Source: a virus
Strand: one strand, 5' to 3'
IMG/VR virus record: IMGVR_UViG_3300025141_000234
Span: 1-41,433 of that record
Length of the DNA stretch: 41,433 nucleotides
Of this stretch, positions 1,571 through 38,434 are shown in pieces (position 1 is the first letter of the stretch; every line of letters begins with the position of its first letter). Both the position numbers and the translations under genes were made by a program. The notes beneath the pieces are model-generated. The model saw only the letters and a program-made list of their open reading frames with translations. It was not told where the DNA came from and searched no databases.

Positions 1571-3007
1571 ATGGATTTCATTACTGATTATCATTCGGAC
1601 TACACCAATTTCCAAGCCGATTGGCAATTCTATATCCAATCATATATCGGTGGCCGCGCCTATATCACTGACAGCAACCTGTTCCAACACCTGCGGGAGA
1701 GCGAACAGGATTTCAACCTCCGCTTGAAACGGGCGGTCTACACCAATTATTGCCGTTCGGTGATTGATTTGTATACCTCCTTCATTTTTGGGGTGGAAAC
1801 CCATGTTATGCGGGATTTCGAAGGTGATCAATATTACCTCGATTTCAGTCGTGACGTGGATTTACGCGGCAATACCATCGACGATTTCATGCAACAGGTC
1901 GCCACCTATACCCAAGTTTATGGCTTTTGTGGCATTTTGGTCGACTCGCCGCCCCGTGATGACTCCATCTTGACCTTACGCGACCAACAGGATTCCGGCC
2001 TCCGGCCTTACCTTTGTATCTACCAGCCGGTCGATATAGTCAACTGGTCATTGGATCGGTTCGGCCAGTTGCTATGGGTCAGGTTACGCGAAACCGTCAC
2101 CGATAATGTCGACCCATTTGAAGAGACGGAGGAGGAGGTCGTATTTCGGACTTTCACCCGTGATGAATGGTTTTTGCATGACGATCAGGGAGAGCTAATC
2201 GAACAAGATACTCATGGTTTGCAACGAGTGCCTTTTGTCTTGGCCTATTTTCAACGGCATCCTCAATACCCGTTGATCGGGTTGAGCCAGTTAGTGGACA
2301 TCGCACCCATCAACCGTTTATTGACTAACATTAGCAGTTATATTGACGAGTTCGTAGCCAAGCAAGCCTTCCCTTTCTTGGCCGCTAGTGACAATCCAAT
2401 GGCGGCTAACGATCAGGAAGAAGAGGCCATTATTTCGGCCAGTAACGTCTTTCAATATCCCCAAGGTGGCCAACCGCCAGCTTACGTTAGCCCGCCCACC
2501 GATCCGGCTGAGTTCATGCAGAGCTTTTCCAGTGATTTCCTGATCCAACAAATCTTGAGAGCCGCTCATCTGGATCATCGGGCTTTAGCCGAACAGTCAG
2601 GGGTGGCCAAACAGTACGATTTCCATCAGCTGAACCATGTTTTGAGCCGCTTCAGTCGTAACCTGGAGATGGCTGAATCTCAGATAATGTCCGTCTACCA
2701 TCGTTGGACCGGTCAGGATTTGGAGTTAGGGCAGATAGATTATCCCGACACTTTCGAGATCGAATCCATCAGTCAAGCCTTAGCCAACAGCAAATTGGTG
2801 CGTGAAATTTTCGGTGATAAATCTCCCACCTTCACCAGCGAACATCTGCATCGGATGGCCCGACGGTTAGCTCCCAAACTGGAACAAGATGTGGCCGGCA
2901 CCATCGCTGAAGAGTTGGAAGGAAGTGCTACCAACGATTCGCAAGCCTTGGCCTTTATGGCTGAGATGGAAGAGTTCGGGGATAACGGACAACCAGAAAC
3001 AGAATGA
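1571..3007 (+). CDS. Portal protein
   Basis: The dodecameric ring at the capsid vertex through which DNA enters and leaves. The 478-residue length, the position between terminase and the MuF minor head protein, and the sequence character all fit. There is an N-terminal segment with SVIDLYTSFIFG, a central crown region rich in Asp/Glu, a stretch PFVLAYFQRHPQYPLIGLSQLVDIAPINRLL typical of the stem and wing helices of DUF4055-type portals, and an acidic C-terminus. The start at 1571 follows GGGGTAAAG, an acceptable ribosome binding site. The stop overlaps the next start as ATGA, implying translational coupling to the MuF gene. I identify it from overall pattern and synteny; portals have no single catalytic motif. 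Confidence 0.88.
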   Translation: MDFITDYHSDYTNFQADWQFYIQSYIGGRAYITDSNLFQHLRESEQDFNLRLKRAVYTNYCRSVIDLYTSFIFGVETHVMRDFEGDQYYLDFSRDVDLRGNTIDDFMQQVATYTQVYGFCGILVDSPPRDDSILTLRDQQDSGLRPYLCIYQPVDIVNWSLDRFGQLLWVRLRETVTDNVDPFEETEEEVVFRTFTRDEWFLHDDQGELIEQDTHGLQRVPFVLAYFQRHPQYPLIGLSQLVDIAPINRLLTNISSYIDEFVAKQAFPFLAASDNPMAANDQEEEAIISASNVFQYPQGGQPPAYVSPPTDPAEFMQSFSSDFLIQQILRAAHLDHRALAEQSGVAKQYDFHQLNHVLSRFSRNLEMAESQIMSVYHRWTGQDLELGQIDYPDTFEIESISQALANSKLVREIFGDKSPTFTSEHLHRMARRLAPKLEQDVAGTIAEELEGSATNDSQALAFMAEMEEFGDNGQPETE

Positions 3008-6000
3008 GTATTTCGGCTTATCAGCAGTCTATTTTTAAGTCGAGGGCTATACCCCTCAAAGCCACTCAATCGGTAGAAGAACGACAGTTAATGGCCTTAG
3101 AAATGGCCTCCTCGCAGTTGACGGCTTTAATAACTCAAATGACAGAATCGGGTGAATTGAGTGAGGAGGAGGCGATAGATCGCGAATTATATTTAGCCAA
3201 GAAAACTGCCATCCAAAACCTGATGACCCGATTGGGGACTGGTATTAGTGTCGATATATCGGACTCAGTGAAGTCAGTAACCGAAGAAACAACGGCTTTG
3301 ATGGAATTGGTTACTGGCGATTTGGTTAGCGAGGACGATCAAGAGGTGGATTTGAGCAATTTCGCCGGAATCCCGCAAACAGTGCTGGCCGATTATGCTA
3401 GCCGGGTGGATGTCGAAGGGTTGAAAATTAGCCCTGATATATGGGCCAACAACCAAACAGCCTTGATCGAGAACCAAGTTATGTCAGCTATCGTCAGAGG
3501 CCAAAGTGCTATTAGCCTAGCTCAAAATCTGGAGAAGTTTGTACTTGGTGGTTCGATAGGTATGGGCCACAGTATCGCCTACAAAACGATGCGCTTGGCT
3601 CGGACGGAAATAAATACCGCTTACCACGAAAGCCGCCGTTTGAGTGCTATGGCTAGTCCGGTAGTACAAGGGATGGTATGGAAACTAAGTAACCGACACC
3701 CGAAATGGGATGTCTGCGACCTATTAGCCGAACAGGATTTATATGGTATGGGACAAGGCGTTTATCCGTCCGCGCAATTACCCCCCAAACCACATCCGAA
3801 TTGTATTTGTTACACGATGGATGATTTGCGAGATCCTGTTTTGTGGGATTCACCGAAACCGGCCATAGCCTTGAAAGGCGATCCTTCCCAATTTCGGCCT
3901 AAGGGTGTGGGGACAGAAGCATCCATCAATAAACAATATCAAATGTTCGATGCTCTGATCCGAAAATCAGCCGAGGCCGACGAGAGGGTAGTGGTTAGTC
4001 CTAAGCCAATACCACTGACTGAGCCACTGGTCATAAAAGAAGCCGAAGTGGCCCAACTCTGGGATACAGATGTGTTTGATGGTGCGGGTGTTCCGGTCAA
4101 GAAGGTATTTGATACCGGTTATCAAGATCTCACCACCCTGCTTCGCTGGATGATAGATAACCCCGGTCATTCATTGACCCAATTACACGACCAGTGGATC
4201 GGATTTAGCCCCAAGGCCAAATCAGCTGATAATGAGACCCTTAAACTCGTCAAGGGGAAGCTGGAATCAATACTGGACCAATTGGCCCAGCCTGAGCGGG
4301 CAGAGACCGAGGTTGCAGTTCCTGTTTTGCCGCCGCACACCTACGAAACCGATAAGAAAATGGTGCTGGAAACTTTAGCGGATGAAGCCGAGCAATCGTA
4401 TTTGATTGACAAAGATGGGGCAATGACTGAAATCTCAAAGGGTGACCCTCACATGGGGGCAGACGCCTCAGTCAAACACCCGGATCATCCTGATTTGGTC
4501 AAAGAAGGTGCTGACCTGCATTTGGTTCACACTCATCCGATAATTTATGGCGATTTTGTAGGGCCATTATCTCCGGGAGATATTATTCAGCTGAGTAATT
4601 ATGACGGCATGAGATGGATGTCAGCCCTTTTGCCGGATGGGACTTTGATTACAGCTGAAAAGTTAGTAGATCGAAGTCTGTTTTATTGGAAAGCCAAAGA
4701 TTTAGCTGGCGATCTTCATATGAAGAAGGTAGACAAGCTCTTGGAGGGCGAACTGGCTGATAAAGCGGCCGGCGATAAGTGGGTGGCTGATCAAATGTGG
4801 GAAGCCTTGCGTCAGCTGGATAGGGATGGGTGGATAAAATTATCTATTCAAAAAGGGTATATTGACCTTGAAAAATCAGCCGAGGCCGACGAGCCGACAT
4901 CACCGGTGCCGGCTGAATTAAAAGACAAGTTGAGTTTCTCTTTATCAGATAAGGTTTATAACGATTTGCTACAGGCAGTTCGGGCCAACCCTGAGATTAT
5001 CGACACCATGGACATCGACGCTTTATCCGGAGAATGGGGGTTTATTGACCCGAAATACTCGGTCGACTACTACGCGACCGGCTGGGAATTGCAGGAAGTT
5101 ATGAAAAGCTTGGCCGCGGACGTAGCCGCTCGGCCTCCCTTAACACCCGAACCGACTCCAACACCCGAACCATCGCCCGCCGCAGAAGAACGGGTCGACA
5201 TAAGCCAATTCCTTTCAGATTCGACCGAACTTACCGAGGCGGAAAAGGGCTCCTTATCTGCGTTGATGAGCCATATCAAAGAGGATCGAATGATGGACAT
5301 TATAAATGCTATCAGGAGCGGCGTTGCGGTGGAAGCTGTTTGGGAGGGGGATGCGCATTTCGCCTTGGATCCAGCGATAGCTCTTTACCGGGAGCACAGG
5401 GATCTGGATGCGACCATCACTAAGTTGGCCATGGAGATAGATAAGTTTCATATTTCCTCATCTTGGGCAAAATTCTTGGCTGAAGAACCGTCTCCCACAC
5501 CTCCACCAGAGGGAGTCGTAGAACCGCCGGCAGGACGGGAGATAGTCATTACCCATGATCGGATAAGAGGTCTTCCAATAGACTTGGGTGAAAAAGAAAG
5601 TCTCGGTGCCTTATTAAGCCATATTGGAGAAGGGCCAATGATAGATATAATTACCCGATTAGAGGGTGGGGAAGCCATAGATTCTGTTTTATCAGCTTAT
5701 GATGGAGATGGGCTTGTCTCATATCTACGAGCTTTTAAGTTAGATGAGGCTTTAGTACGGGTTGTCTCCAACGAAATGTTCGTTGATGTAGAGGCTGACC
5801 CACCGGTTTCAGAACCGCCCCCGCCACCACCGGCAGTTCTCTCGGAACCGTCGGTCCCAGCGAAGCCGGTGGATAATGTTTATCTGGAGGTCCAAAAAGG
5901 GCTTGGTTCTAAGGCTCCTTCTGAGAAGCTGTTTAAGGAAATGGTGGAAGCGGCCAAAAAGTCGGGAGGCGATTTAGATATAGATGACATAACCAGCATT

Positions 6001-7368
6001 TGGGCCAAAACCGATGACGGACATACCAAGCTGGCCAGCTATGAATTTTTCGACTTGGAGGATCTTGTCTTTAAAGCGTCATTTATCCCAGATCCACCAC
6101 CAGCTTCAGAACCAAGCCCCAAGAAAACAGTTGATGATTTAGATTTCAGCCCGGAATGGGTGGGCGAACTAACAACTATAACCGTTGATGAGCGGGAAGC
6201 CATCGAGTATGTTAAAGGCATGTTGTCGGTCGATTTAGCCAGGATGGCTGAATTGGTGTATGACTTTGATAATGGAGTGGGGATAGATGTCGGATCACCG
6301 GAATTCAATGAGATAATACTTAATTATCTGGACTCAAATTATGTTTTAGAGGGCGATAGCCGCCGTGAGATCGCCCTGATAGCGGCTAAGGCGGTAGCTA
6401 ATAACATCGACTATTTCACTGGTGTTGTTCCTGAATTGCCGGCACCCTCTGATGAGGCGGTTGTAGAGGCAGAGCTTAGTTCAAGCCCGTTGCAGAAGTT
6501 ACAACGCCGATTTGAAGAAGGCATTGATAAGTTAGATACTTATTATTATCAGTTGCCAGAAGATGTCAGAACGAAATATGAAGCCGCGGCTGACAAATTG
6601 CGAAGTGAAGAAGTCCCAATCTCGATGAATATCCCCTTGGGGAAAACGCTAGATTTCAATAGGACTGTCTTAGATGCTTTGCTGACAGATGGCCGTTTGA
6701 AAAACTTATTTGAAACAGGAACCGGCGAAGGTTCAACTAATCAGAATCAGCGATCTGATTGGGAGAGGAACATTATAGCTTCAATGGCGGGTATGCAGAC
6801 CTATAAATCAGGCAGTCAGGTCATAAACGGTAAAGGAGCTTTGGGGGTATCAGCGGTTGAAGGTTTATATGACTCTATCCCAATTGAGGATCGACCTGTT
6901 TATGGCGCCTTTAACATTGGCAGAATCCCTGACGGAGCGGCTACGCAATATTCGGGCAGATATAATAACTCTTGGCTAGAATTAGAGAATCATGTCAAGG
7001 ACCGAACTACGATGGTAGCAGGTAATTCATCGGCAGAGCAGTCATCATTCGTGCCGGTCAACCAAGCGGAAAAAGGGTTTGTTTTGGAGGAATGGGATAC
7101 TTCAAGAGCGATTGATGATATTCAGGCAGGGAAGAAAGAAGGCTACTACCGCTATGTAGAGGCTCAAGTTTGGGGTGGTGTAGATTTGGCTCGGGACGTA
7201 AAAGCTGTTCATATTACTATCCCTTATTATGATGCTGATGATGACCCATTTGGGATGGGGCCAGAGCAGTTGAAGGTGGATATGGATAAGTTGCGAGAAT
7301 TAGGCGAGAAATATGATATTGAAATAATCACCCATCAAGAGGCTAAACCGGGGACAGGTACATACTAA
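3004..7368 (+). CDS. MuF minor head protein fused to JAMM-like and DUF3626-like domains (candidate delivered effector)
   Basis: A 1454-residue multidomain protein, several times longer than a plain MuF head morphogenesis protein. Residues about 150-290 are the MuF domain, with ARTEINTAYHESRR near 198 and the Cys/His end HPNCICY near 264. Around 445-560 lies a JAMM/JAB-like metalloprotease signature, H509-x-H511, then S523-x2-D526. The middle (about 625-1160) alternates helical modules with four Pro/Glu-rich linkers. The C-terminal 290 residues resemble DUF3626 as I remember it: LFETGTGEG at 1235, RPVYGAFNIGRIPDG, and EAQVWGGVDLARDV from 1386. MuF proteins sit inside the capsid, and MuF fusions with C-terminal toxin domains are a known class of phage-borne polymorphic toxins. 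By analogy this C-terminus may be ejected into the host. Effector function is inference; the MuF call is firm. Confidence 0.92.
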   Translation: MSISAYQQSIFKSRAIPLKATQSVEERQLMALEMASSQLTALITQMTESGELSEEEAIDRELYLAKKTAIQNLMTRLGTGISVDISDSVKSVTEETTALMELVTGDLVSEDDQEVDLSNFAGIPQTVLADYASRVDVEGLKISPDIWANNQTALIENQVMSAIVRGQSAISLAQNLEKFVLGGSIGMGHSIAYKTMRLARTEINTAYHESRRLSAMASPVVQGMVWKLSNRHPKWDVCDLLAEQDLYGMGQGVYPSAQLPPKPHPNCICYTMDDLRDPVLWDSPKPAIALKGDPSQFRPKGVGTEASINKQYQMFDALIRKSAEADERVVVSPKPIPLTEPLVIKEAEVAQLWDTDVFDGAGVPVKKVFDTGYQDLTTLLRWMIDNPGHSLTQLHDQWIGFSPKAKSADNETLKLVKGKLESILDQLAQPERAETEVAVPVLPPHTYETDKKMVLETLADEAEQSYLIDKDGAMTEISKGDPHMGADASVKHPDHPDLVKEGADLHLVHTHPIIYGDFVGPLSPGDIIQLSNYDGMRWMSALLPDGTLITAEKLVDRSLFYWKAKDLAGDLHMKKVDKLLEGELADKAAGDKWVADQMWEALRQLDRDGWIKLSIQKGYIDLEKSAEADEPTSPVPAELKDKLSFSLSDKVYNDLLQAVRANPEIIDTMDIDALSGEWGFIDPKYSVDYYATGWELQEVMKSLAADVAARPPLTPEPTPTPEPSPAAEERVDISQFLSDSTELTEAEKGSLSALMSHIKEDRMMDIINAIRSGVAVEAVWEGDAHFALDPAIALYREHRDLDATITKLAMEIDKFHISSSWAKFLAEEPSPTPPPEGVVEPPAGREIVITHDRIRGLPIDLGEKESLGALLSHIGEGPMIDIITRLEGGEAIDSVLSAYDGDGLVSYLRAFKLDEALVRVVSNEMFVDVEADPPVSEPPPPPPAVLSEPSVPAKPVDNVYLEVQKGLGSKAPSEKLFKEMVEAAKKSGGDLDIDDITSIWAKTDDGHTKLASYEFFDLEDLVFKASFIPDPPPASEPSPKKTVDDLDFSPEWVGELTTITVDEREAIEYVKGMLSVDLARMAELVYDFDNGVGIDVGSPEFNEIILNYLDSNYVLEGDSRREIALIAAKAVANNIDYFTGVVPELPAPSDEAVVEAELSSSPLQKLQRRFEEGIDKLDTYYYQLPEDVRTKYEAAADKLRSEEVPISMNIPLGKTLDFNRTVLDALLTDGRLKNLFETGTGEGSTNQNQRSDWERNIIASMAGMQTYKSGSQVINGKGALGVSAVEGLYDSIPIEDRPVYGAFNIGRIPDGAATQYSGRYNNSWLELENHVKDRTTMVAGNSSAEQSSFVPVNQAEKGFVLEEWDTSRAIDDIQAGKKEGYYRYVEAQVWGGVDLARDVKAVHITIPYYDADDDPFGMGPEQLKVDMDKLRELGEKYDIEIITHQEAKPGTGTY
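3963..3984 (+). repeat. 22-base direct repeat, left copy, in the MuF gene
   Basis: Identical to 4872-4893 and in the same frame, encoding KSAEADE at both places. It marks the left edge of the segment containing the JAMM-like domain. Confidence 0.9.
4872..4893 (+). repeat. 22-base direct repeat, right copy, in the MuF gene
   Basis: Second exact copy of 3963-3984. The two copies lie 909 bases apart, an exact multiple of three, so recombination between them would delete the JAMM-bearing segment without breaking the frame. Confidence 0.9.
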
Positions 7369-8618: not shown

Positions 8619-9764
8619 ATGGCCTTTTCAGGAAGGGCTACCTATTCAAACGATACCCTGATCGGTGAAGATGTATCTGATCTGGTATCTACTATCTCAC
8701 CTTTCGAAACTCCGTTACTGGACTTCTTGGGTGATGCCCCGCAATCAGCTACCAATGTCCTCCATGAATGGGTGGAAGATTCACTCAATCCCGGCACTTT
8801 ATTGGCATCATCGGCCATCGCTTCGGCCACGGCTGATACCGCTTTCCGTGTCAATGGCACCGGCAACAATTTGCAAGTGGGCGATATTCTACGTATGGTC
8901 GGCGGCAACGTGATTGCCAACGAAGAATTGATGCAAGTCACAGTGGTGACCGGTGCTAATTCGATTACTGTTAGCCGAGGTTTCGGGAGTGTTGGCCCAT
9001 CTTCACTAGCAGTCGGCGGTTCTTTGGAACTGGTTAGCAATGCCAGTTTGGAGGGGGCCGATGTTTCGGGCGATATTTCCCTCAACCGTAGCCGTCAATA
9101 CAATTTCGTGCAACAGTTCCAAAAGCCGATTGAGGTTAGCGACACCCAACGCTCAGTCAACAACTTGGGCGGGATTGACGACGAATACAGTTACCAGCTA
9201 GAGCAAAGAACCAAGGAGATCTTGCGTGACTTGGAGAAAGCGGTCATCTTGGGCGCGGCTTCGGGTAACAGCTTCGGTTCATTAACCGCCTATCGGTCAA
9301 TGAAAGGTATCTGGCGTTCAATCGCTACCAACCAACAAACCACCACCGCCGCTTTGACCGAAACTTTCTTGGGCGATACTATCGTCAAGTCAGCTTGGGA
9401 TAACGGTGGCGATGATGTTGACCTGATCGTGGCTGATGCGGAATGGAAACGAGCTATTGACGGCTTCATTGACTCTCGCATCCGAGTGACTGATGATGCG
9501 GATACCTTCCGCACCGAAGTAACCTACTATGAGTCTAGCTTCGGTCGTCAAGTAGTCTTACCGCCTAACCGTCACATGCCATACAAATCGGCGATGGTCT
9601 TGGCCTCGGATCGGATTGAAGTGGTGCCGTTACAAGGCCGCTCATTCCAACACGAATCGCTAGCCAAAACCGGCCATGCTACCAAAGGTGTAGTGGTCGG
9701 TGAATACACGGTGGCGGTGATGAACGAATCCGGTCATGCCAGAGGTGTTGACACAGACGCTTAA
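8619..9764 (+). CDS. Major capsid protein (HK97 fold, SU10/DUF5309-like)
   Basis: The main shell protein, 381 residues. The N-terminus runs through EDVSDLVSTISPFETPLLDFLG and then HEWVEDSLNPG, the pattern of SU10-type capsid proteins (DUF5309). Residues about 68-150 form a Val/Gly/Thr-rich insertion (VGDILRMVGG, ITVSRGFG) that reads as an inserted beta domain. After it come DISLNRSRQYNFVQQF, the helix LEQRTKEILRDLEKAVILG (spine helix), and a C-terminal part with VVLPPNRHMPYKSAMVL and GRSFQHESLAKTGHATKGVVVGEYTV. The start follows AAAGGAATAAC. There is no long N-terminal delta domain, consistent with a separate scaffold gene upstream. Family call from memory of the pattern; role is supported by synteny. 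Confidence 0.93.
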   Translation: MAFSGRATYSNDTLIGEDVSDLVSTISPFETPLLDFLGDAPQSATNVLHEWVEDSLNPGTLLASSAIASATADTAFRVNGTGNNLQVGDILRMVGGNVIANEELMQVTVVTGANSITVSRGFGSVGPSSLAVGGSLELVSNASLEGADVSGDISLNRSRQYNFVQQFQKPIEVSDTQRSVNNLGGIDDEYSYQLEQRTKEILRDLEKAVILGAASGNSFGSLTAYRSMKGIWRSIATNQQTTTAALTETFLGDTIVKSAWDNGGDDVDLIVADAEWKRAIDGFIDSRIRVTDDADTFRTEVTYYESSFGRQVVLPPNRHMPYKSAMVLASDRIEVVPLQGRSFQHESLAKTGHATKGVVVGEYTVAVMNESGHARGVDTDA

Positions 9765-9801
9765 CCCTAACACAATTGCCCATCGCAGGAAATTGTTTAT
9801 T

Positions 9802-10020
9802 ATGCCTATGCTCGATTTAGCTGATATTGAAGTGCTGAAAAGTTTTATGACCCACAATATCCATCAACCCTTCAACCCCAAATACTTGATCCGGTTTCGG
9901 CGGGTGTTACCGGTTTTATTACAAGATTACGAGAAACTGTGCTACGAAAATGATGCTTTGTTAAAAACTAACCGGCTATTGGAAAAGGAACTGGTCAAAG
10001 GGCAAGAGGCGGCAGAATGA
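9802..10020 (+). CDS. Small protein between capsid and glycosyltransferase genes
   Basis: A 72-residue protein of unknown family. I start it at 9802 (MPMLDLADIEVLKSF) because AGGA at 9787-9790 precedes that ATG, whereas the longer frame starting at 9736 would run into the capsid gene. The C-terminal half is a helix with heptad-like leucines (LLKTNRLLEKELVKGQ). Its stop overlaps the start of the large glycosyltransferase gene as ATGA, so the two are probably co-translated and this protein could be a partner of the enzyme. No catalytic motif is visible. Confidence 0.7.
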   Translation: MPMLDLADIEVLKSFMTHNIHQPFNPKYLIRFRRVLPVLLQDYEKLCYENDALLKTNRLLEKELVKGQEAAE

Positions 10021-12998
10021 AATATAATATCGCCTTCTATTGCCAATCAGTACCCTTTTCGGCAGAGACTATCAAGCTGGAGAAATCTTTAGGTGGTAGT
10101 GAAACAGCTTTGGTTTATATGGCCAATGCTTTGGCCCAACGAGGCCATCAGGTCACGGTCTTCACTCAATTTCAAAACGAAGATCATCAAGGGCGGTATA
10201 ACGGGGTCAAATGGGCTGATAGCCAGTATTTCCCTGATATGTGCCACAGTATCGAATGGGATATATTTATCTCCCAACGCTACTATCCAGTGATGGCTAA
10301 TAATGTCCGGGCCAAGTATCGTGGTTTATGGGTTGAGGATGTGTTGGAAGCTGGTATCAAGGCTGAATATGCCGGCAGTTTATGGCAAACAGATCAGATC
10401 CTTTATGTCAGTGATTGGCAACGGAAAAATTACGAATCTATCTTACCTAGTGGCATAGAGAAGCTAGCCTTTGTTACTAAGAACGGCATTGATTTGGATA
10501 CGGTCGATGACAGTTTGGTGGCTGAAAAAGATCCCAACCAGATGATCTATATTAGCCGGCCAGAACGAGGGTTGTTCCCACTGTTACAAATCTTTCCTCA
10601 GATGCGGGAGTTACGGCCTGACCTGAAATTAAAGGTTTGTCGCTACTATTCAATGTACGAGAACAACCCGGACGTGAAGCGGATTTGTGAGCAAGCGGAT
10701 CGTATGGTAGCTCATACCGAAGGGGTGGAATATTTGGGTAATTTGAACAAAGCCCAATTATATAAACATATCTCCAGATCAGCTTTAATGTTGTATCCGG
10801 GTGTACCGACTTTCGATGAAACCTCTTGCATCGCCGCTTTGGAAGCTCAAGCCTGTCGAACCCCAATGGTAGCCACCAACCGTGGAGGATTAGTCGAGAC
10901 TTTATGGCCGTTTGCTGGTGCTTTGATCGACGGTGATGCTTATAGTGACGGTTACCAGCGCGAATTTATCGCCCAAGCCTTCGATCTGTTGGACGATTCT
11001 GCCCGTTACCGTGAAGCCCAAAAAACGGGTCGTGAGTGGGTAGTTGACAATTATCAATATCACACTATTGCTGAGGAATGGGAACAGAATTTCGATCAGT
11101 TCTTTAAAACTCGATTTGAAACCTATACCCCTCAAATATTTGACAACCTGTTACATCACGACGATTTTGTTACCGCTTACCATATGCAAGAGGAAGACGG
11201 TATTAGCCAAGAGCAACGTGACCGCTTGGATTCCCAACTCAACCAAACCCATACTGAACAGCAATACGAAGATGGGACAGAAGATCCAGCTGTTGAATTC
11301 TCCTTTTTTGAAACTGGCTATCATGGCCGATTAGAAACGGTCTTGCAATTGATCGACCCCAAAAAAAGCCAAATGGAGCCAGCTAACATCATGGATTATG
11401 GCTGTGGCGGAGGTGTCTTTGCCAGTGCCTTGCAACGAATGTTCCCTTCGGCCCAAGTTTTGGGTATAGATTTCAGTCAAGGTGTTGTGGACAAGGGCAA
11501 CCAATTCATAGCCGACCAGAAATGGGAGCAACGGAAACCGCATCTGCACCAAGCTGATTTGATGGATGCATCCAGCTTGCAAGAGATCAAGGTTGAGGGT
11601 GATGTCCGGTTCTCTTTAGAGGGCCAGAAATATGATTTGATCTTTTGTGGCGAATTATTGGAACACTATGCTGAACCAATGGAACTGGTTTTGACCTTGG
11701 AAGACTTGCTAACCGATGATGGTTGGCTGGTGTGGACAGTCCCCAACGGCCCATTCGTAGAGATGGCCACCAATGACAGGGAGCGGAACCAACGGACGCA
11801 CCGAATCCATTGGGAATACAACACGGTGGAAGAAGTCTTTAGCCAGAAGGACGGGTATCAGGCCCGTTATATCTGCATCAATAATTCCACCGGATGTCGG
11901 GGCTTGGAAAAGGGCCATTATGTCTTCCGCCACCAAAAGGGCGGTCAATACGGCGAGATAGATTTCGACAAGAAAGCCAAGCTGACTCGACCTTACCAAA
12001 AGATTAGTGTTTGCATGATTGCCCAGAACAACGAACAGGATATAGGCCGTTGTTTGGATTCGGTCAAAGGGGTAGCTGACGAGATTATTTTGGCCCACAA
12101 TCAATCAACCGACAAGACGGTGGAGATCGCCAAACAGTATGGGGCTAAGATCATCGAATTGCCAGAAAAATGGCCAGCCGCTCCGGATTGGGCACCTAAT
12201 CCGGGCAACTTTTCGTGGATGCGGAACGAGTCGGTTGATCCGGCCAACGGTGATTGGATTCTGTGGATTGATACTGACGAAGAATTGCGTAACGGTGATC
12301 TGTTGGGCAAGTATCTACAGACCCGACTTTATGACGGATATGTCTTGCGTCAGGTTCATTTGATGGTTGACGCTGACCAAAGGCATGATACCCCGGTTAG
12401 GCTGTACCGTAACGGGGCCGGGTTCAAGTTTTATGGTTGCATCCATGAACATGCCCATCGGAGTCTAAACGAACCGATAGAACCGTCATTTGAGTTGCCA
12501 TCGACCGACATCATCCATTATGGCTATGTGACGGAAGATGTGCGCCAAATCAAGTGTAAAGAACGGAATATCGGACTGTTAAAACTGGATCGAGCTGTGC
12601 ATCCTGATAGGTTGTTAGGTTGGGTCTTGTTAGCACGGGAATATATTAATATGGTGGGCTGGGAACGGCAAGAAACCCCGGACCAACCTTTAAGCCAGAC
12701 TTCCGAACGACGGTTGCGGGAAGTGTTACGCATTTTCCACGATGAAGATCTTAATTTGGCTGATCCAGAGGGCCGTTATTACAAACTGATATTCCCTATT
12801 TATCAGGTGGCTTTGAAACTGTTACAAGTAGGGTTCGGGGCCAAAATAGATGTTCAGATAACGGATAACGGTCAAGATATGCGCTTCTTGGATCAGGACG
12901 ATTTGGAGAAGCATTTACAGTTCCAAATTAAGGACTTGGAGAAACAAGTCTTCACCTTGACCAGAGATAAAACCTATTTAACTCAAGTGGAGGGCTAA
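10017..12998 (+). CDS. Trifunctional GT4 glycosyltransferase - SAM methyltransferase - GT2 glycosyltransferase fusion
   Basis: A 993-residue protein with three enzyme modules. Residues 1-380 are a GT-B glycosyltransferase of the GT4 kind: LGGSETALVYMANAL near 25, and an EX7E pair at E268/E276 in PTFDETSCIAALEAQ that would hold the nucleotide-sugar donor. Residues about 430-640 are a class I SAM-dependent methyltransferase, with motif I MDYGCGGG at 459 and later FCGELLEHY and VWTVPNGPF. Residues about 660-900 are a GT-A/GT2 glycosyltransferase (SVCMIAQNNEQDIGRCLDS, ADEIILAHNQSTDKT) with a DXD-like metal site at D752/D754. No membrane segment is visible, so it should be cytosolic. It lies in the head operon between capsid and connector genes, which suggests it builds and methylates a glycan on a virion protein or another phage-specific acceptor; the acceptor is not evident. 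Domain calls are strong, the substrate is unknown. Confidence 0.93.
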   Translation: MKYNIAFYCQSVPFSAETIKLEKSLGGSETALVYMANALAQRGHQVTVFTQFQNEDHQGRYNGVKWADSQYFPDMCHSIEWDIFISQRYYPVMANNVRAKYRGLWVEDVLEAGIKAEYAGSLWQTDQILYVSDWQRKNYESILPSGIEKLAFVTKNGIDLDTVDDSLVAEKDPNQMIYISRPERGLFPLLQIFPQMRELRPDLKLKVCRYYSMYENNPDVKRICEQADRMVAHTEGVEYLGNLNKAQLYKHISRSALMLYPGVPTFDETSCIAALEAQACRTPMVATNRGGLVETLWPFAGALIDGDAYSDGYQREFIAQAFDLLDDSARYREAQKTGREWVVDNYQYHTIAEEWEQNFDQFFKTRFETYTPQIFDNLLHHDDFVTAYHMQEEDGISQEQRDRLDSQLNQTHTEQQYEDGTEDPAVEFSFFETGYHGRLETVLQLIDPKKSQMEPANIMDYGCGGGVFASALQRMFPSAQVLGIDFSQGVVDKGNQFIADQKWEQRKPHLHQADLMDASSLQEIKVEGDVRFSLEGQKYDLIFCGELLEHYAEPMELVLTLEDLLTDDGWLVWTVPNGPFVEMATNDRERNQRTHRIHWEYNTVEEVFSQKDGYQARYICINNSTGCRGLEKGHYVFRHQKGGQYGEIDFDKKAKLTRPYQKISVCMIAQNNEQDIGRCLDSVKGVADEIILAHNQSTDKTVEIAKQYGAKIIELPEKWPAAPDWAPNPGNFSWMRNESVDPANGDWILWIDTDEELRNGDLLGKYLQTRLYDGYVLRQVHLMVDADQRHDTPVRLYRNGAGFKFYGCIHEHAHRSLNEPIEPSFELPSTDIIHYGYVTEDVRQIKCKERNIGLLKLDRAVHPDRLLGWVLLAREYINMVGWERQETPDQPLSQTSERRLREVLRIFHDEDLNLADPEGRYYKLIFPIYQVALKLLQVGFGAKIDVQITDNGQDMRFLDQDDLEKHLQFQIKDLEKQVFTLTRDKTYLTQVEG

Positions 12999-13001
12999 AT
13001 T

Positions 13002-13595
13002 ATGGCTGTCAGAGCAACGATGGCTGACTTGATAACTTATACTCGCTATCTGGTAACGGATGAGGCTTCAGCCACTTTCACTGATCAGAAAGTGCAGGAT
13101 GTATTGGATCAGCATCGGACCCATTTTGACTATATCTTGCTGGATCGTGATAGCGATTACCGGTATTACTATAGCCGAGGATGGCGGGGCGATGATGTGT
13201 CATTGAATCGGATTCCGCGCAGTAATTATCCGATCCAAGTGCCGGATTTTAGCCTTTATACCAAGGTCGGTTTCTTTGAGACTGATTACACGTTACGGGA
13301 TGGTAGGACTGAAGACAATACTAGCCACACGGCCGATGATGCCAACCTATTCGACGGCACTTATACCTTCAGCACCACGCCAGATACTGACCTCTATTTC
13401 TTCGGCAAAGGTTATAACGTTTGGAGAGCGGCGGGCGATCTGTTGAGTTGGACACCCGACTTTGGCCGTTTGCCTCTGGATAGCAACAGTCGAGGAAGTG
13501 TCAATGAGAGTTATGCTTGGAAAGATAAAATCGAGCAATACTACAATCGGGGCATGGGCCTCAATAAACGGGTGCCAAAACTATATCGAGCATGA
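13002..13595 (+). CDS. Probable head-tail connector (adaptor) protein
   Basis: A 197-residue protein starting AVRATMADLITYTRYLV, with a helical N-terminus resembling gp6/gp15-type adaptors (an early helix, then SATFTDQKVQDVLDQH). It ends in a helical tail, AWKDKIEQYYNRGMGLNKR. The aromatic and Asp-rich middle (YRYYYSRGWRGDDV) is divergent. It is the first gene after the glycosyltransferase fusion and heads the block of small connector genes, overlapping the next start as ATGA. Assignment rests on N-terminal pattern and synteny. Confidence 0.7.
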   Translation: MAVRATMADLITYTRYLVTDEASATFTDQKVQDVLDQHRTHFDYILLDRDSDYRYYYSRGWRGDDVSLNRIPRSNYPIQVPDFSLYTKVGFFETDYTLRDGRTEDNTSHTADDANLFDGTYTFSTTPDTDLYFFGKGYNVWRAAGDLLSWTPDFGRLPLDSNSRGSVNESYAWKDKIEQYYNRGMGLNKRVPKLYRA

Positions 13596-20472: not shown

Positions 20473-23400
20473 ATGGCTAATCAGCTAGTAAAGATCAACG
20501 GCAGAAATTTATATGACGGGCTTGGCACGGGGGCGAATTTCGAGACCTTGTCCATCTCCGGCCGGGGCTTGGCCCCAACCAGAGACCGACAACTCCAATT
20601 CCCGGGCGATGTTGGAGCTAGGGATTACGGTAGCTTGCCTGATGTGAGGAGGATCACAATTAGCGGCATCTTGCACGCCAATACCATCAACCAATTCACC
20701 TCGGCCTTGGATGAGTTAAAAATGGTTTGCCGTTCCCGTTTGAAAGTGGACGAAATCTTGTATGGTGAAGTCGAGGCTCAGACCTTATGGTTTGCCGACG
20801 AGAGCGTGATTCAAACCGGTAATATCGCGGCGGCCAGCGGAGGCGGTTATATTTCAGCCACAACGGCCGACCTCGATGCCGGGTCAAGCGACAACGACCA
20901 TTACAATGGGATGCAGATCGAGATCACCGGCGGTGCTGGAGCCGGTCAGGTGCAGGATATTGTCGATTATCTGGGCGCTTTTAAGGTGGTCACAATCGGG
21001 AAGGCTTGGTCTACCAATCCAGACGGCACCTCCACCTTTTGGATACTGGACAATCGGTATCATCTGATCAACTATTCCGGCACCATGAACGAGGAACGGT
21101 TGACCCGTCAGTGGTTCGCTCATGGATTTGCCAACATCACTTTACCCTTCAAAGCGGTGTATCCTTTCGCGGTTAGTGATGTCAAGAATACCGAGTTCAC
21201 GCCTAACTCCACCAACGGCTATTTCAAGAGTATCAATACCGGCACAGCCCCAACTTACCCTGTTTACCGTATCAAAGGCGAGGCTAATACCCCCACCATT
21301 GTCGAAGCTACCCATTCGCTAGTTTGGAACGCCAACGACAATAACGCCACCAATATCTTGGGCGAATCGGTATCAGCCACCGTCTCAGCGGCCGGCTTCT
21401 ACGGCCAGACCGGCAAGCTGAACCAAGCGATTGCTTTTGATACCAATCAGGACAAAACGCAAGGGGATGTCGTCAGTATTACTAATGTTGGCGTTAGGCC
21501 ATCATTGGGGATTGGGGTGGGAGCAAATTACAATCAGGGGACAGTGGGGTTTTGGGCCAAGAAATCAGGCGATTGGTTCGACCCTGCGGTGGAGCTTGAT
21601 TATCAATATATTTTGAAATCCTATAGTTCCTCAGATGGGCTAATCTTATTCGTTAATAAGGCGTGGGGCAGTAACCGCATTGTCCTCCAAGTCAACGATC
21701 AAGTCTGTGAGGTTAGCCCGACCTTAACAGCAGGTGACTGGTTCTATTTCATTTTTCGATGGGATACTAGACGGACGGGGTTTTCAACATCTTCTGCCTC
21801 GTCCTATATTTTGGGCGAGATTTACAACACGGCCGGGGCTCTGGTTGCCAATGCTTCTGTCACTACTGACCCGTCTGAAGCTGACGGTGTAAACTCCCCG
21901 ATCACGTTAGGCAACGACGGTGCCGGCTCTAGTTTTTTCGATGGCCTAATCGACGATCTGGCCATCTGGGATCGGCCCCTCACCGATACCGAGCGCAACA
22001 CCCTTGTCAACTCCGGCACAGGAGTCCGAGCCGATACCGTAGCCTCCAGCGAGTTGGTGTATTATTCGGACTTCGACCAAACCGTCGGCACCGTATTTGA
22101 TGACGAGACAATCGCCTCCTCCAACATGGACACGGCGCAGGTTTCAGTCACCAGCGATACGGCGGCTACGGTGGGCGGATATGGTGACAAGATTTTCTCG
22201 GCCAGTGATCGGTTTGTTCTCTACGATGAAACGGGCTACAAGGTGCAAAGCACAGTAGCAACCTCGGCTGATACGAGCATCACCTATGCCACCCTAACAG
22301 ACGCCGATAAAGTCGGGGTTTATGGCACCCTCAACGGGGCGCAATGGTATCAAAATGCTACCAACACTGTGGCTAACCCGACCACCAAGATCTATTCAGT
22401 ATCGGCTTGGGTTAAAACGACTTATACTACGGGTGACCAAGTCGTTATTTACAAACAGTCAGCCACTGCCGGGGTCGCTGTTGAGATCAACACGTCTGGA
22501 TTTCTGGTTGGATATTTAAGGGAGAGTAGCACCAACTATATTGCTACTGCAAACACGCTGGCTGTCAATGACGGGAAGTGGCACCATATAGCCTATACTA
22601 GCGACGGGACGACTCAACAGTTGTATGTTGACGGGGTTGAGTGCGGTTATTCCGCCCAAGCATCAGTCGCAGGGGTGACTTCTGCCTCCAATACTGGCAC
22701 CCCAAATATTGGCCGAAACGGCAACACCGGCAGTGGGTTGCTAAATGGGTCGATCCGCGATGTTGCTGTTTGGGTGAATACAGGCCTAACTAGCGCCAAC
22801 GTCTTGACCTTAGCCACTAATCCGGTGTCCGGTGTTGGATCGGTTGCCGGCGCGGCGGTACATTGGAAAATGGTTGACGCCGCTAGCGCCACGACTTTAG
22901 ATGACGCAATTGGCACCAGTGACCTTGCTTTTAACGGCGGCACGACTACCAACTATGGCACCCATTCCCGCACCCAACTGGCCTACATCAGCAGAAACCT
23001 GATCGCCGATGGGGGCATGGAAAATGGCGGGATTGGGGGGCGGGTTAGCGTGCTGGATACCTGTGTATACTCCAAAACGACAGCCGCTATTAAGGATGCT
23101 CAGTCCTTCCACGTCCACTGCCCCACCGGATTCGGCACTGATAGGTGGAATAGCTCGTCGATGTCCGTAGCCGATGGCGAGGATTATGTAGCTCGGATGT
23201 GGGTTAAACGGACGGGAACATCGCCCCTACAAATGTTCGGGCAAACTTTCGAGGGGGGCACTCTCCGGACTGAGTTGCAATTGAATGTGTCCGGGGCTAT
23301 TGGCACAGATTGGACTTTTATCGAATCTAGTTACCAAATTGATAAAGGTGGAGGAAGTGTAGGAGATAATTTTAAGATCCAAAGCTATGGCGCTAACACG

Positions 23401-24702
23401 GCCGCCGACAACTTCGACATCGACGACATAAAACTCCTGCCCAACTTGGTGGATAACGGCGGTTGTGAAGGAGCAGTTCAAGGCTTGGACCCATATTATC
23501 CGTTAAATTGGGGGCTTCAGGGGTCGCCGGCCGCGGGCACGATTGCGGTCAATGCGACAGCCGCCCACAGCGGATCTTTGGGCGTTCAATTTATAGCATG
23601 TGCACCCTCGACCGGCGTGAAGTTTTGGGGGGCGAGTTTAATAGTTGGGCAAACTTATGAATACAGCCTTTGGGTCAACATCTCGTCAGGCTCAATAAGG
23701 CTTCAAGACGGCTGGTTGAACTTCCCCCTGAGCTATGTAGGCACGACCAGCGGGTGGGAGAGAAAATCCTTCTTTTTTACTGCTTCCGCTGTGGGCTTCG
23801 CTCCTATTATAGATTGCCAGCTAACCACGTCGGGATACATCGACGACGTGTCCCTAGTCCACCGCCCCGACCTGTCCGCCTCCTTCAACAACATGACCAA
23901 CGGCTACCGCTTCGAGCCGACGAGGCTGACGCGGGGGTATAAAACGGGCTACAACGAGCTGGGGTATTTTGTCGGCCAAGTTTTCAACCTTGACGAATTT
24001 TGCGTCAGGGCTGTTTTCCGCCCACAATTTCCGTCAACCACCGGCTCAGATGAGTATCTGGTAGGGGCCTACGAGGTTCTTAATAGTCGCTTGTCAATCT
24101 TTTATCAAAGTAGTTCAGATAAATTCGTGTTTGAAAGTTACGACTCGACCTCGGGGACACGAACGTCAACTACACCGGCGATGAATTTCAATCAAGACGA
24201 GGAGCTAGAACTAGGATGGGCCTTCGACTCGTCTGGGTCAAGGGTTTATGTCAACGGCTCAGGGGCGGGGGCAACTAATAACGGCGTGGGGACACCACTG
24301 ACCAACGATATGTCTGTTGTTGCCTTTGGTAGTGATTATTATTCAAATCACACGGGCAACTACATCATCGACGACCTCGAAATCCTGGCCAAATCGCAAC
24401 CCGCCGAATGGTTCGCCGAAAAACACGCCAAACGGAACGCGGCCAAGTTTGAGAACCTGAAAGCGGTTTACGCTTCCACCTTGGATGCGGGAGACATCTT
24501 GACCTTAGACTCCAACACCACCAAGGTAATCGCTAGGGCCAAACTGTGGGACGCTTCGGCCAGCACTGATACTGATGCCCTGACCAATATGACCATCAAC
24601 CAGAGCAAGATGCCGATCTTGTCACCTACCAAGTCGATGTTGTATTTTCCTAATTCGATACCCTCTGGTGTTGAGATTTATTACCGCAATAACTTCCAAT
24701 AG
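20473..24702 (+). CDS. Distal tail protein with LamG and carbohydrate-binding-like insertions ('evolved Dit')
   Basis: A 1409-residue protein whose N-terminal 120 residues (VKINGRNLYDGLGTGANFETLSI, then DVGARDYGSLPDVRRITISG) and last 90 residues (LDAGDILTLDSNTTKVIARA) look like the two halves of a Dit protein, the hexameric base of the tail tip. Between them lie a small GAGAGQVQDIV beta module (about 135-195), LamG-like domain 1 (about 293-515, ending FFDGLIDDLAIWDRPL), LamG-like domain 2 (about 621-785, WHHIAYTSDGTTQQLYVDGV), two CBM-like jelly rolls beginning NLIADGGMENGG and NLVDNGGCEGAV (about 841 and 990), and a third LamG-like domain (about 1170-1316). These modules probably bind cell-surface glycans. 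Base composition changes between modules, suggesting separate acquisition. Start follows ATAGGAG. Confidence 0.88.
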   Translation: MANQLVKINGRNLYDGLGTGANFETLSISGRGLAPTRDRQLQFPGDVGARDYGSLPDVRRITISGILHANTINQFTSALDELKMVCRSRLKVDEILYGEVEAQTLWFADESVIQTGNIAAASGGGYISATTADLDAGSSDNDHYNGMQIEITGGAGAGQVQDIVDYLGAFKVVTIGKAWSTNPDGTSTFWILDNRYHLINYSGTMNEERLTRQWFAHGFANITLPFKAVYPFAVSDVKNTEFTPNSTNGYFKSINTGTAPTYPVYRIKGEANTPTIVEATHSLVWNANDNNATNILGESVSATVSAAGFYGQTGKLNQAIAFDTNQDKTQGDVVSITNVGVRPSLGIGVGANYNQGTVGFWAKKSGDWFDPAVELDYQYILKSYSSSDGLILFVNKAWGSNRIVLQVNDQVCEVSPTLTAGDWFYFIFRWDTRRTGFSTSSASSYILGEIYNTAGALVANASVTTDPSEADGVNSPITLGNDGAGSSFFDGLIDDLAIWDRPLTDTERNTLVNSGTGVRADTVASSELVYYSDFDQTVGTVFDDETIASSNMDTAQVSVTSDTAATVGGYGDKIFSASDRFVLYDETGYKVQSTVATSADTSITYATLTDADKVGVYGTLNGAQWYQNATNTVANPTTKIYSVSAWVKTTYTTGDQVVIYKQSATAGVAVEINTSGFLVGYLRESSTNYIATANTLAVNDGKWHHIAYTSDGTTQQLYVDGVECGYSAQASVAGVTSASNTGTPNIGRNGNTGSGLLNGSIRDVAVWVNTGLTSANVLTLATNPVSGVGSVAGAAVHWKMVDAASATTLDDAIGTSDLAFNGGTTTNYGTHSRTQLAYISRNLIADGGMENGGIGGRVSVLDTCVYSKTTAAIKDAQSFHVHCPTGFGTDRWNSSSMSVADGEDYVARMWVKRTGTSPLQMFGQTFEGGTLRTELQLNVSGAIGTDWTFIESSYQIDKGGGSVGDNFKIQSYGANTAADNFDIDDIKLLPNLVDNGGCEGAVQGLDPYYPLNWGLQGSPAAGTIAVNATAAHSGSLGVQFIACAPSTGVKFWGASLIVGQTYEYSLWVNISSGSIRLQDGWLNFPLSYVGTTSGWERKSFFFTASAVGFAPIIDCQLTTSGYIDDVSLVHRPDLSASFNNMTNGYRFEPTRLTRGYKTGYNELGYFVGQVFNLDEFCVRAVFRPQFPSTTGSDEYLVGAYEVLNSRLSIFYQSSSDKFVFESYDSTSGTRTSTTPAMNFNQDEELELGWAFDSSGSRVYVNGSGAGATNNGVGTPLTNDMSVVAFGSDYYSNHTGNYIIDDLEILAKSQPAEWFAEKHAKRNAAKFENLKAVYASTLDAGDILTLDSNTTKVIARAKLWDASASTDTDALTNMTINQSKMPILSPTKSMLYFPNSIPSGVEIYYRNNFQ

Positions 24703-28703: not shown

Positions 28704-29123
28704 ATGATAGGCTTCACTTGCGGATCGTTCGACCTGTTACATGCCGGCCATATTCTAATGCTAACTGAATGTAAGGATTATTGCGACTATTTGATCGTGG
28801 GCTTGCAGGTAGATCCCTCGGTTGATCGGTCAGAAAAGAATAAGCCGGTCCAATCGTTGTTCGAACGCCAGATCCAGTTAGAGAGTGTGCGGCATGTGGA
28901 TCGGGTAGTAGTTTATGAAACCGAGGCCGATTTGGAACAAGTATTGTTGTCCTTCTGTCCTGACCGGCGGTTCGTTTCAGAGGAGTATCGAAACAAGGAT
29001 TTTACCGGATCTGAGATCTCTGGCATCGAGGTTATTTATAATAACCGCCGTCACCATTTCAGTTCTAGTAGATTACGGGAGAGATGCCAAGACGGGTCAG
29101 GCTGGATAATGGATCGTGAATGA
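28704..29123 (+). CDS. TagD-like cytidylyltransferase
   Basis: A 139-residue nucleotidyltransferase of the HxGH superfamily. CGSFDLLHAGHI puts the catalytic HxGH at H13-H16, followed by LIVGLQVDPS and a Rossmann-type pattern. It has the length of a glycerol-3-phosphate cytidylyltransferase (about 130 residues), which makes CDP-glycerol from CTP. The usual R-T-x-G-I-S-T-T end appears here as HHFSSSRLRER, a divergence near the nucleotide pocket, so substrate may differ. Pairing with the glycosyltransferase fusion at 10017 suggests the phage makes or redirects an activated polyol or sugar. Other members of the superfamily, such as FAD synthetase-like or ADP-heptose-type enzymes, remain possible. 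Confidence 0.88.
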   Translation: MIGFTCGSFDLLHAGHILMLTECKDYCDYLIVGLQVDPSVDRSEKNKPVQSLFERQIQLESVRHVDRVVVYETEADLEQVLLSFCPDRRFVSEEYRNKDFTGSEISGIEVIYNNRRHHFSSSRLRERCQDGSGWIMDRE

Positions 29124-30347: not shown

Positions 30348-30702
30348 CCATAAGGACGAATATGCTGGCAAAAGTGACCACGAAGTAATCCTGATCCTAG
30401 AGTCCCAAGTCCAAAACTTGCTGGCCAATTTGGACAAGACCGAGAAACAGAATGAACGGCTAACCAAGACCCAAGGCCAGATCTCGGTAGTAAGGATGGT
30501 TTTCATGGGCGTGATCCTGTTGATTGGCAGTATGGTAGCTATGAGTATTGTTAGCTGGTGGTCACCCAAGGGTACCATCGGGATCGAGAAGGAGTTAGCT
30601 TTTTTTGAGAGGTTGTTGCTGGTGTTGTTGGGGATATTAGGATCAGCGACGGTGGCACTCTACGACCAACGGGCCGGTAATGGGAATGGAGATAGCAAAT
30701 GA
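30334..30702 (+). CDS. Membrane protein with coiled coil and two membrane helices
   Basis: A 122-residue protein. Residues about 18-48 form a coiled coil (LILESQVQNLLANLDKTEKQ), followed by membrane helix VFMGVILLIGSMVAMSIV (about 56-73) and a second, LLLVLLGILGSATVALY (about 93-109), and a short polar tail. The stop overlaps the start of the histidine kinase gene as ATGA, so this protein and the kinase are likely co-translated and might form a membrane complex, supplying the sensing part the kinase lacks. That partnership is inference from gene order. Confidence 0.62.
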   Translation: MVSADHKDEYAGKSDHEVILILESQVQNLLANLDKTEKQNERLTKTQGQISVVRMVFMGVILLIGSMVAMSIVSWWSPKGTIGIEKELAFFERLLLVLLGILGSATVALYDQRAGNGNGDSK

Positions 30703-32057
30703 TTTTTGGTGAGATCTCAGTCGAGGGTGCGTTGGGGTTAGGGGTGGTTTGGGGGGTTGGAGTAGTCTCCGTCATGACGGCCATCGTCAACAAAGCCAAG
30801 GAGGAGGTCAAGGGGTATTTGCACACGACCTTGAAAGAGCATCGGGATGTAGCGGCTGAAATGGTAGGGTCTGGTGTCGAGAGTCAGCTATGTGGGGTAC
30901 AACAAGATTTGAAAGTGGCGTTAGCGGATCTGGTCACGGCGGAAGCGGCCACTGAGGCCAAAACGGAGTTCTTGTCACGGATGAGCCATGAGATCCGTAC
31001 CCCGTTGAATGGGATTATCGGTTCGTTGGGCTTGGTGGATAAAGAAGGGTTGAGCCTCCAACAGGCCGAAGATATTGAACGAGCGGTAACCGCCTCCAAC
31101 CGATTACTGGCGGTGGTTGACCAGATCTTGGAGTTTTCCAAGGTGGAGTCCGAAACCGTCGACTACCAAAAAGAGGCTTTCGCCTTAAATGAGGTCTGTC
31201 AAGAATTAGTGCAAGAAATGGACGTACTGGCAAACGAGAAGGGGCTTGACCTTTCCTTGGAGTTAATTGGTGATGGCCCGGACTGTCGAGTAGGAGACCG
31301 GCAAAAGATATTTCAAGTCCTGACCAACTTGGTTGGCAATGCTATCAAATTCACCAATAAAGGATCTGTCCGGTTGGAAGTTAATCAGGCTGATGATGAT
31401 TGGGTCGAGTTCAAAGTGGTTGACACAGGGATCGGAATCCCAGCTTCAGAATTGGGAGTTATTTTTGGTTCGTTCACTCAAGCCAGCAATAGAACATCCA
31501 ATCAGACCTCCAGCACTGGTTTGGGGTTGAGTATTTGCCACCGCTTCGTGTCGGGCATGGACGGGAAAATGGCGGTCTACTCCGAATTAGGGGTCGGCTC
31601 CACCTTTAGCTTTCGCCTCCCTTTGCCGTTGTGTCATGTGGGCGATCTTGGGGCCAAGCCTAATCCAAGCCTTGGATTAGTTGGGCATGGCCAATCCGCT
31701 TTAATAGTCGATGACGAACCAACCAACCGTATTATCGCCACCCGGTATCTGGAGAATTTAGGGCTGGAGGTGGTGGCGGTGGCGAGTGGGACCGAAGCGG
31801 TAGCGGAATGTGGGAAGACGAAATACGATTATGTTTTTATGGATTTGCAAATGCCGGTCATGGACGGGTTTGAAGCCTGCAAACTGATCAAGGAAGGCGG
31901 AAACGGGGAGGAGATAATCGCCCTGACAGCCAGTGTGGTTGGTGATATTGAGGACAGGTGTCTGGCGGCGGGGATGGATGGATACCTGAGCAAGCCTTTT
32001 ACCGCCGATCAATTGCGGTCTATCGTCTCAACAAGGCATATTAGAGAGAAGGAATAA
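30699..32057 (+). CDS. Hybrid sensor histidine kinase with receiver domain
   Basis: A 452-residue two-component protein with every catalytic box intact. A membrane helix lies at about 9-30, followed by a coiled linker. The HisKA domain carries FLSRMSHEIRTPLNGI with phospho-acceptor H97. The HATPase domain has N-box QVLTNLVGNAIKFT (N210, N214), G1 DTGIGIP at D242 and G2 TGLGLSI near 273. A receiver domain at about 333-445 has acidic pair D338/D339, phospho-acceptor D382 in MDLQMPVMDG, T410 and K432. There is no periplasmic, PAS or other sensor domain, so input must come through the membrane helix, the coiled coil or a partner such as the membrane protein just upstream. Such kinases are standard in bacteria and very rare in phages. 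Terminator at 32147 follows. Confidence 0.96.
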   Translation: MIFGEISVEGALGLGVVWGVGVVSVMTAIVNKAKEEVKGYLHTTLKEHRDVAAEMVGSGVESQLCGVQQDLKVALADLVTAEAATEAKTEFLSRMSHEIRTPLNGIIGSLGLVDKEGLSLQQAEDIERAVTASNRLLAVVDQILEFSKVESETVDYQKEAFALNEVCQELVQEMDVLANEKGLDLSLELIGDGPDCRVGDRQKIFQVLTNLVGNAIKFTNKGSVRLEVNQADDDWVEFKVVDTGIGIPASELGVIFGSFTQASNRTSNQTSSTGLGLSICHRFVSGMDGKMAVYSELGVGSTFSFRLPLPLCHVGDLGAKPNPSLGLVGHGQSALIVDDEPTNRIIATRYLENLGLEVVAVASGTEAVAECGKTKYDYVFMDLQMPVMDGFEACKLIKEGGNGEEIIALTASVVGDIEDRCLAAGMDGYLSKPFTADQLRSIVSTRHIREKE

Positions 32058-38346: not shown

Positions 38347-38434
38347 AAAAATGGGGCTGTGTCTAAAGCACAACCCCAACCAATTTAACACTTTAACACC
38401 TAAAGCCATAAAGGTGCTTAAGGAGAAACAGTTT
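38347..38434 (+). other. Short gap with two hairpins
   Basis: Contains GGGGCTGTG/CACAACCCC (38355-38363 with 38370-38378 approximately, one central mismatch) and CACCT/AGGTG a little downstream, ahead of the AAGGAG site of the SWIM gene. There is no T run, so it is not a classic terminator. Confidence 0.4.

Follow-up and report, generated by a model that had tools for sequence, protein, structure and literature searches.

The window analysed here, the whole of the 41,433-nucleotide viral record IMGVR_UViG_3300025141_000234, carries at 10017-12998 on the plus strand a single intact open frame with an ATG start that encodes a protein of 993 amino acids. Its domain order is GT4 glycosyltransferase, class-I SAM methyltransferase (MT) and GT2 glycosyltransferase (GT: glycosyltransferase), with Pfam matches above the curated cut-offs to Glycos_transf_1 (aa 166-306), Methyltransf_23/12/31/11/25 (aa 452-599) and Glycos_transf_2 (aa 664-762). 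Upstream of this fusion, Pfam and PHROGs recognise the genes for TerL, a portal (phrog_145), a MuF-like protein, a scaffold and a major capsid protein (MCP) of the SU10 type; downstream lie a 197-aa open reading frame (ORF), a weakly Neck1-like ORF, an Ig-domain/tail protein and the tape measure protein. The features that matter for the argument are as follows.

8619..9764, plus strand: major capsid protein (SU10_MCP; Pfam E 2.4e-69), candidate acceptor
9736..10020, plus strand: 94-aa gene between MCP and fusion, overlapping the fusion start (ATGA) and conserved in close relatives
10017..12998, plus strand: GT4-MT-GT2 fusion gene, 993 aa (Pfam, AlphaFold; 48 aligned relatives with the same architecture)
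10017..11111, plus strand: GT4 domain (aa 1-365), GT-B fold (Pfam Glycos_transf_1 / Glyco_transf_4; Foldseek to MshA, BshA, PimA, PglA)
10818..10844, plus strand: GT4 EX7E catalytic motif, E268/E276 (49-sequence alignment)
11112..11321, plus strand: helical linker (aa 366-435), the fastest-evolving part of the fusion (AlphaFold model; sequence divergence)
11322..11951, plus strand: class-I SAM-dependent methyltransferase domain (aa 436-645), motif I D460-G466 (Pfam Methyltransf_23; 49/49 members match)
11952..12626, plus strand: GT2 domain (aa 646-870), GmaR/SunS-like, GT-A fold (phmmer to GmaR 22ao, SunS 7msp)
12270..12278, plus strand: GT2 DXD motif D752-T-D754 (both D invariant in 49 sequences)
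12627..12995, plus strand: C-terminal helical tail (aa 871-993; AlphaFold model)
13002..13595, plus strand: 197-aa gene after the fusion, connector-like by sequence inspection only, with no database match
28704..29123, plus strand: cytidylyltransferase-like protein, candidate donor or accessory enzyme (61% identical to the homologue in locus L018)

The fusion stops 3 bases before the next start (13002) and the stop of the preceding ORF falls within the ATGA overlap; as read from this layout, the gene is translationally coupled into the head operon. Strong purifying selection acts on its frame: compared with two close relatives, the gene as a whole has a dN/dS of 0.06-0.08 and the three domains have values of 0.01-0.08, and the linker by itself is less constrained (0.16 where it could be measured). 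No strong or long hydrophobic segment was found in the fusion protein, which is therefore probably soluble.

Elsewhere in the window, the MuF-like head protein (3004-7368) joins a MuF-like part (aa 1-320) to a long C-terminus with DUF3626, and in several relatives the similarity is confined to its first ~320-350 residues, a pattern like that of MuF proteins with exchangeable toxin tails. Other genes encode a large tail-region protein with a Laminin_G_3 (lectin-like) domain (20473-24702), a hybrid histidine kinase with HisKA, HATPase and receiver domains (30699-32057) and a small protein with a SWIM zinc finger (38351-38779).

Each module carries the marks of its enzyme class: Glycos_transf_1 with EX7E for the GT4 (GT-B) module, Methyltransf_23/11/12 with motif I for the class-I SAM-dependent methyltransferase, and Glycos_transf_2 with DXD for the GT2 (GT-A) module. 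An AlphaFold model built from a 49-sequence alignment reached a pLDDT of 89.9 and a pTM of 0.89, and replaced a poor first model from 7 sequences (pLDDT 56), which was discarded. Foldseek searches of the PDB matched the GT-B side to the GT4 enzymes GlgM, MshA, BshA, PimA and PglA and the GT-A side to the protein S-glycosyltransferases SunS and ThuS. By phmmer, the best solved-structure match of the GT2 module is Listeria GmaR (PDB 22ao, E 6e-19), followed by SunS (7msp, E 3e-11). GmaR transfers O-GlcNAc to flagellin; SunS glucosylates a cysteine of a peptide. Both sequence and fold similarity thus place the GT2 domain with glycosyltransferases of the GmaR/SunS kind, and we regard it as a putative protein (Ser/Thr/Cys) glycosyltransferase closest to these two. 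The BFVD predicted structures of uncultured phages include other large multidomain GT/MT proteins. The earlier note had described three sugar/methyl-transfer modules in one protein, flanked by virion genes. Pfam, AlphaFold and Foldseek agree on the modules, and the flanks are indeed head genes upstream and a putative connector and tail genes downstream.

A search for the same architecture in viruses, which the earlier note had proposed, revealed a sizeable family. Searching IMG/VR with a profile of the GT2 part gave 165 relatives, of which the best 80, representing 79 loci, were kept; because only these were taken, other architectures may be missed. Clustering at 90% identity with the window included yielded at least 57 distinct uncultured-phage clusters. 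In 49 of the 57 the protein is 937-1093 aa long with GT4, MT and GT2 in identical order, so that the fusion recurs at full length. Two more clusters have proteins of 1276-1278 aa with an insert within GT4, and the remaining six are shorter, five of them beginning at a contig end and one (L111) being naturally divided into a GT4 protein of 444 aa and an MT-GT2 protein of 576 aa. The long variants, L064:5214-9047 and L096:5211-9038, are ~1277-aa fusions with ~240-250 additional residues in the GT4 domain. The relatives are all uncultured, and many of their records are fragments.

Among 50,697 phage records, four different queries found no place covering 80% of the query and hence no full-length copy. 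A single full-length copy was present in 796 bacterial genomes (398 Pseudomonadota and 398 Bacillota), and it is phage DNA, since its contig carries an SU10 MCP and a portal. A weak search of bacterial genome contigs, which used two short patterns from the first alignment, returned single-domain relatives only.

Aligning the window fusion with 48 relatives (27-93% identical to it) gave Pfam matches to GT group 1 and to a methyltransferase in 49/49 members and to Glycos_transf_2 in 47/49. The MT domains are more diverged across the family than the GT domains. An exchange of the MT between lineages was considered and rejected: the MT domains are homologous throughout (31-35% identity). The earlier note had named catalytic residues in all three modules that relatives should not have lost. 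For the glycosyltransferases this stands: E276, D752, D754, E755, H810 and E811 are invariant over the 49 sequences, and residue 268 is a glutamate in 42 of them and an aspartate in the other 7. For the methyltransferase it stands only in part, since the motif I glycines that had been named are often substituted (G462 kept in 32/49, G464 in 27/49), while D460 is found in 48/49 and G466 in 47/49. Because these glycines vary, some relatives may have an altered methyltransferase.

The position of the gene in head operons is conserved as well. We built models of neighbouring proteins from the loci themselves and named them via PHROGs. Where more than 3 kb of upstream sequence was available (37 clusters), profile searches recognised an MCP near the fusion in 32; over all 57 clusters they did so in 42, of which 28 have a phrog_1005-type MCP and 14 an SU10-type one, mostly 0.1-2 kb upstream of the fusion. 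Loci of the phrog_1005 type come with the portal phrog_113 and the protease phrog_976. Head-tail adaptor or Neck1 genes lie near the fusion in 30/57 clusters. Synteny in related phages, a check that the earlier note had named, places the fusion between capsid and neck/tail genes with two capsid families; there is in addition a third group (L054, L057, L080) in which it sits among the neck genes, preceded by minor-head and Neck1 proteins and followed by a connector, as tested on L080. No recognised MCP adjoins the fusion in this group, which makes a neck or tail protein a possible acceptor. Some SU10-MCP phages, Sporosarcina phage Lietuvens among them, lack an annotated GT at the corresponding site, so the fusion is not a required part of the SU10 head module.

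Two arrangements deserve mention in their own right. In L083 and L073 the fusion is inverted with respect to the head operon and still lies between the MCP and the head-tail adaptor. Directly before the fusion, L063 carries an HNH endonuclease gene (L063:5560-6096), with related ORFs in L067 and L085; the L063 endonuclease is perhaps a mobile element using the fusion's slot.

A maximum-likelihood tree of the 49 fusions separates SU10-type from phrog_1005-type rows with support of 100/99 or better, a figure in which a few rows with no observed MCP are scored as phrog_1005. When only rows with an observed MCP are counted (41), a single change between MCP types is enough. Because the tree splits along capsid type, it argues against free exchange of the cassette between head types, and a freely moving cargo gene is unsupported at that level. 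This congruence fits an acceptor in the head; genetic linkage alone could give the same pattern.

Some neighbours hint at sugar metabolism, namely TagD-like cytidylyltransferases and a galactokinase-like GHMP kinase. In L018 a cytidylyltransferase-like gene lies between MCP and fusion, and the relative behind L001 also has one; L019 has the GHMP kinase together with a radical SAM enzyme at this position, and L039 has a radical SAM enzyme near the fusion. These accessory genes suggest modification-related neighbourhoods and do not name the sugar. In the window, no full nucleotide-sugar pathway was found.

Bacterial genomes offer a further parallel. The nearest MT-GT2 proteins, in two Bacillota genomes (L138, L139), are ~1096 aa long, have the domains GT2-MT-GT2 (with TPR domains too, where scanned) and are encoded beside flagellin. 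The flagellin island of L138 also encodes an MT-GT4 protein, and the other Bacillota flagellin locus contains FliD and dTDP-rhamnose-type genes.

The earlier note had suggested glycosylation of a capsid or tail component. Because the gene keeps a fixed site in the head operon, its tree is congruent with capsid type, its GT2 domain is nearest to the protein glycosyltransferases GmaR and SunS, and its bacterial MT-GT2 homologues adjoin flagellin, we infer that a virion component is glycosylated, and consider this suggestion well supported. It is likely, in our judgement, that the fusion glycosylates a virion protein and that the sugar is methylated. If the flagellin of C. difficile is taken as a model (PMC5207246), the methyl group would more likely go to a sugar than to the protein itself. 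The enzyme would act in the host cytoplasm during late infection as a soluble three-module glycan builder, with a newly made virion protein as target, most likely the MCP or a neck or head protein encoded next to it. In the mechanism we propose, the glycan would be started on a protein side chain by the C-terminal GmaR/SunS-like GT2 module and lengthened by the GT4 module at the N-terminus. Methylation of the sugar by the central MT would then terminate or change the glycan chain, a role that has also been put forward for the C. difficile GT-MT fusion acting on type B flagellin. With all three modules in one polypeptide, the steps would stay together and in fixed ratio. The outcome would be a surface-decorated particle, which may affect stability, aggregation, adsorption to the host or the environment, or hiding from binding proteins.

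Other substrates have to be weighed against this. The fusion could modify surface polysaccharides or lipid-linked glycans of the host, leading to seroconversion, receptor masking or superinfection exclusion, and lie in the head operon by chance or for late expression. GT4 enzymes often make LPS, capsule or lipid-linked glycans, and PglA and PimA are among the Foldseek matches. The GT2 domain nevertheless matches protein glycosyltransferases, the fusion looks soluble, and both the fixed late-operon site and the capsid-type congruence extend over many phages, so that we regard such a role as unlikely. A late accessory gene acting on a host protein during infection, for example flagellin or pilin, would agree with the bacterial homologues beside flagellin genes and with the action of GmaR on flagellin. 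Against it stand the congruence of the tree with head type and our inference that late structural expression seems too late to benefit the lytic cycle via the host surface, and we give it a lower chance still.

Phage glycosyltransferases that act on DNA are well known and build diverse glycans (Pyle et al. 2024, as cited in PMC12619734), and the fusion might glycosylate and methylate modified phage bases as a protection from restriction. Such a system would have a companion thymidylate-synthase-family enzyme, and a gene of this thymidylate-synthase/hydroxymethylase type (PF00303) was matched in 0 of 14 records, the window and 13 related ones, which are fragments. The gene also lies within a structural operon and its GT2 domain groups with protein GTs, which leaves DNA modification by the fusion unsupported and, to our mind, very improbable. 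The similarity to SunS and ThuS, together with the radical SAM genes within the loci of 14/57 clusters, raises the case of a small glycocin- or RiPP-like peptide as substrate, modified in partnership with those enzymes. Most loci, the window included, have no radical SAM gene, those present are scattered on the tree (7 changes), neither a precursor peptide nor a transporter was recognised, and the gene sits in a head operon; we find this the least probable of these readings.

With glycosylation of a virion protein as the preferred reading, a broader and more tentative picture can be drawn, to which we give a little less than an even chance: an old and widespread head-specific glycosylation machine of uncultured phages, in which one polypeptide starts, extends and methylates a capsid or neck glycan, is inherited along with the capsid type it belongs to, in two or three different head modules, and uses the enzyme kinds of bacterial flagellin decorators. 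Few systems have been shown to glycosylate phage virions, and the literature we found ties such glycosylation to mycobacteriophages. Here a three-enzyme protein is kept in the head operons of many uncultured phages with differing capsids. If our reading is true, sugar-coated phage particles would be common in nature, with consequences for particle stability, adsorption and phage survival, and the fusion would offer a one-gene glycosylation tool. The flagellin-island parallel suggests that bacteria and phages share one way to decorate self-assembling surface proteins.

Among known systems, GmaR and SunS/ThuS resemble the GT2 module alone. GmaR, its best solved-structure sequence match, is also an anti-repressor and has neither GT4 nor MT. 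SunS and ThuS (PDB 7msp, 7msk) are GT2 enzymes that sugar a polypeptide directly, and SunS is itself phage-borne (SPbeta phage); their target is a bacteriocin cysteine rather than a virion protein, and they too have no GT4 and MT modules. The C. difficile type B flagellin GT2 (CDR20291_0242), which has an MT domain, adds two rhamnoses, and methylation of these has been proposed (PMC5207246). By its description it is like the window fusion in combining GT and MT in one protein whose gene adjoins that of a self-assembling surface protein, and unlike it in having flagellin as acceptor and no reported GT4 domain (PMC5207246).

Closer in genomic setting, the Manatee Spring podovirus ctKR88 (MW202524) has an SU10-like MCP followed by a GT2-TPR-GT4 fusion, more GTs and methyltransferases; the GT order is reversed relative to the window, the MTs are separate, and the 28% identity covers the GT4 part only. 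Another GT-rich head operon, in ctf1B273 (MW202497), has its GT2, GT and methyltransferase-like functions in individual genes, located between those for terminase and portal. GT genes within or beside a structural operon are one mark of a phage virion glycosylation system, and the window fusion is so placed. In the mycobacteriophages, GTs of Che8 (gp110), Corndog (gp38) and Myrna decorate capsid and tail-tube subunits (Freeman et al. 2023, as cited in PMC12363180 and PMC12619734). These systems share with the window fusion phage-encoded GTs and, as predicted here, a virion target. They differ in their hosts and, in those citing passages, are described as GT genes, with no GT4-MT-GT2 fusion. 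In the open-licence papers searched, we did not meet one polypeptide that combines GT4, MT and GT2 and is tied to head modules.
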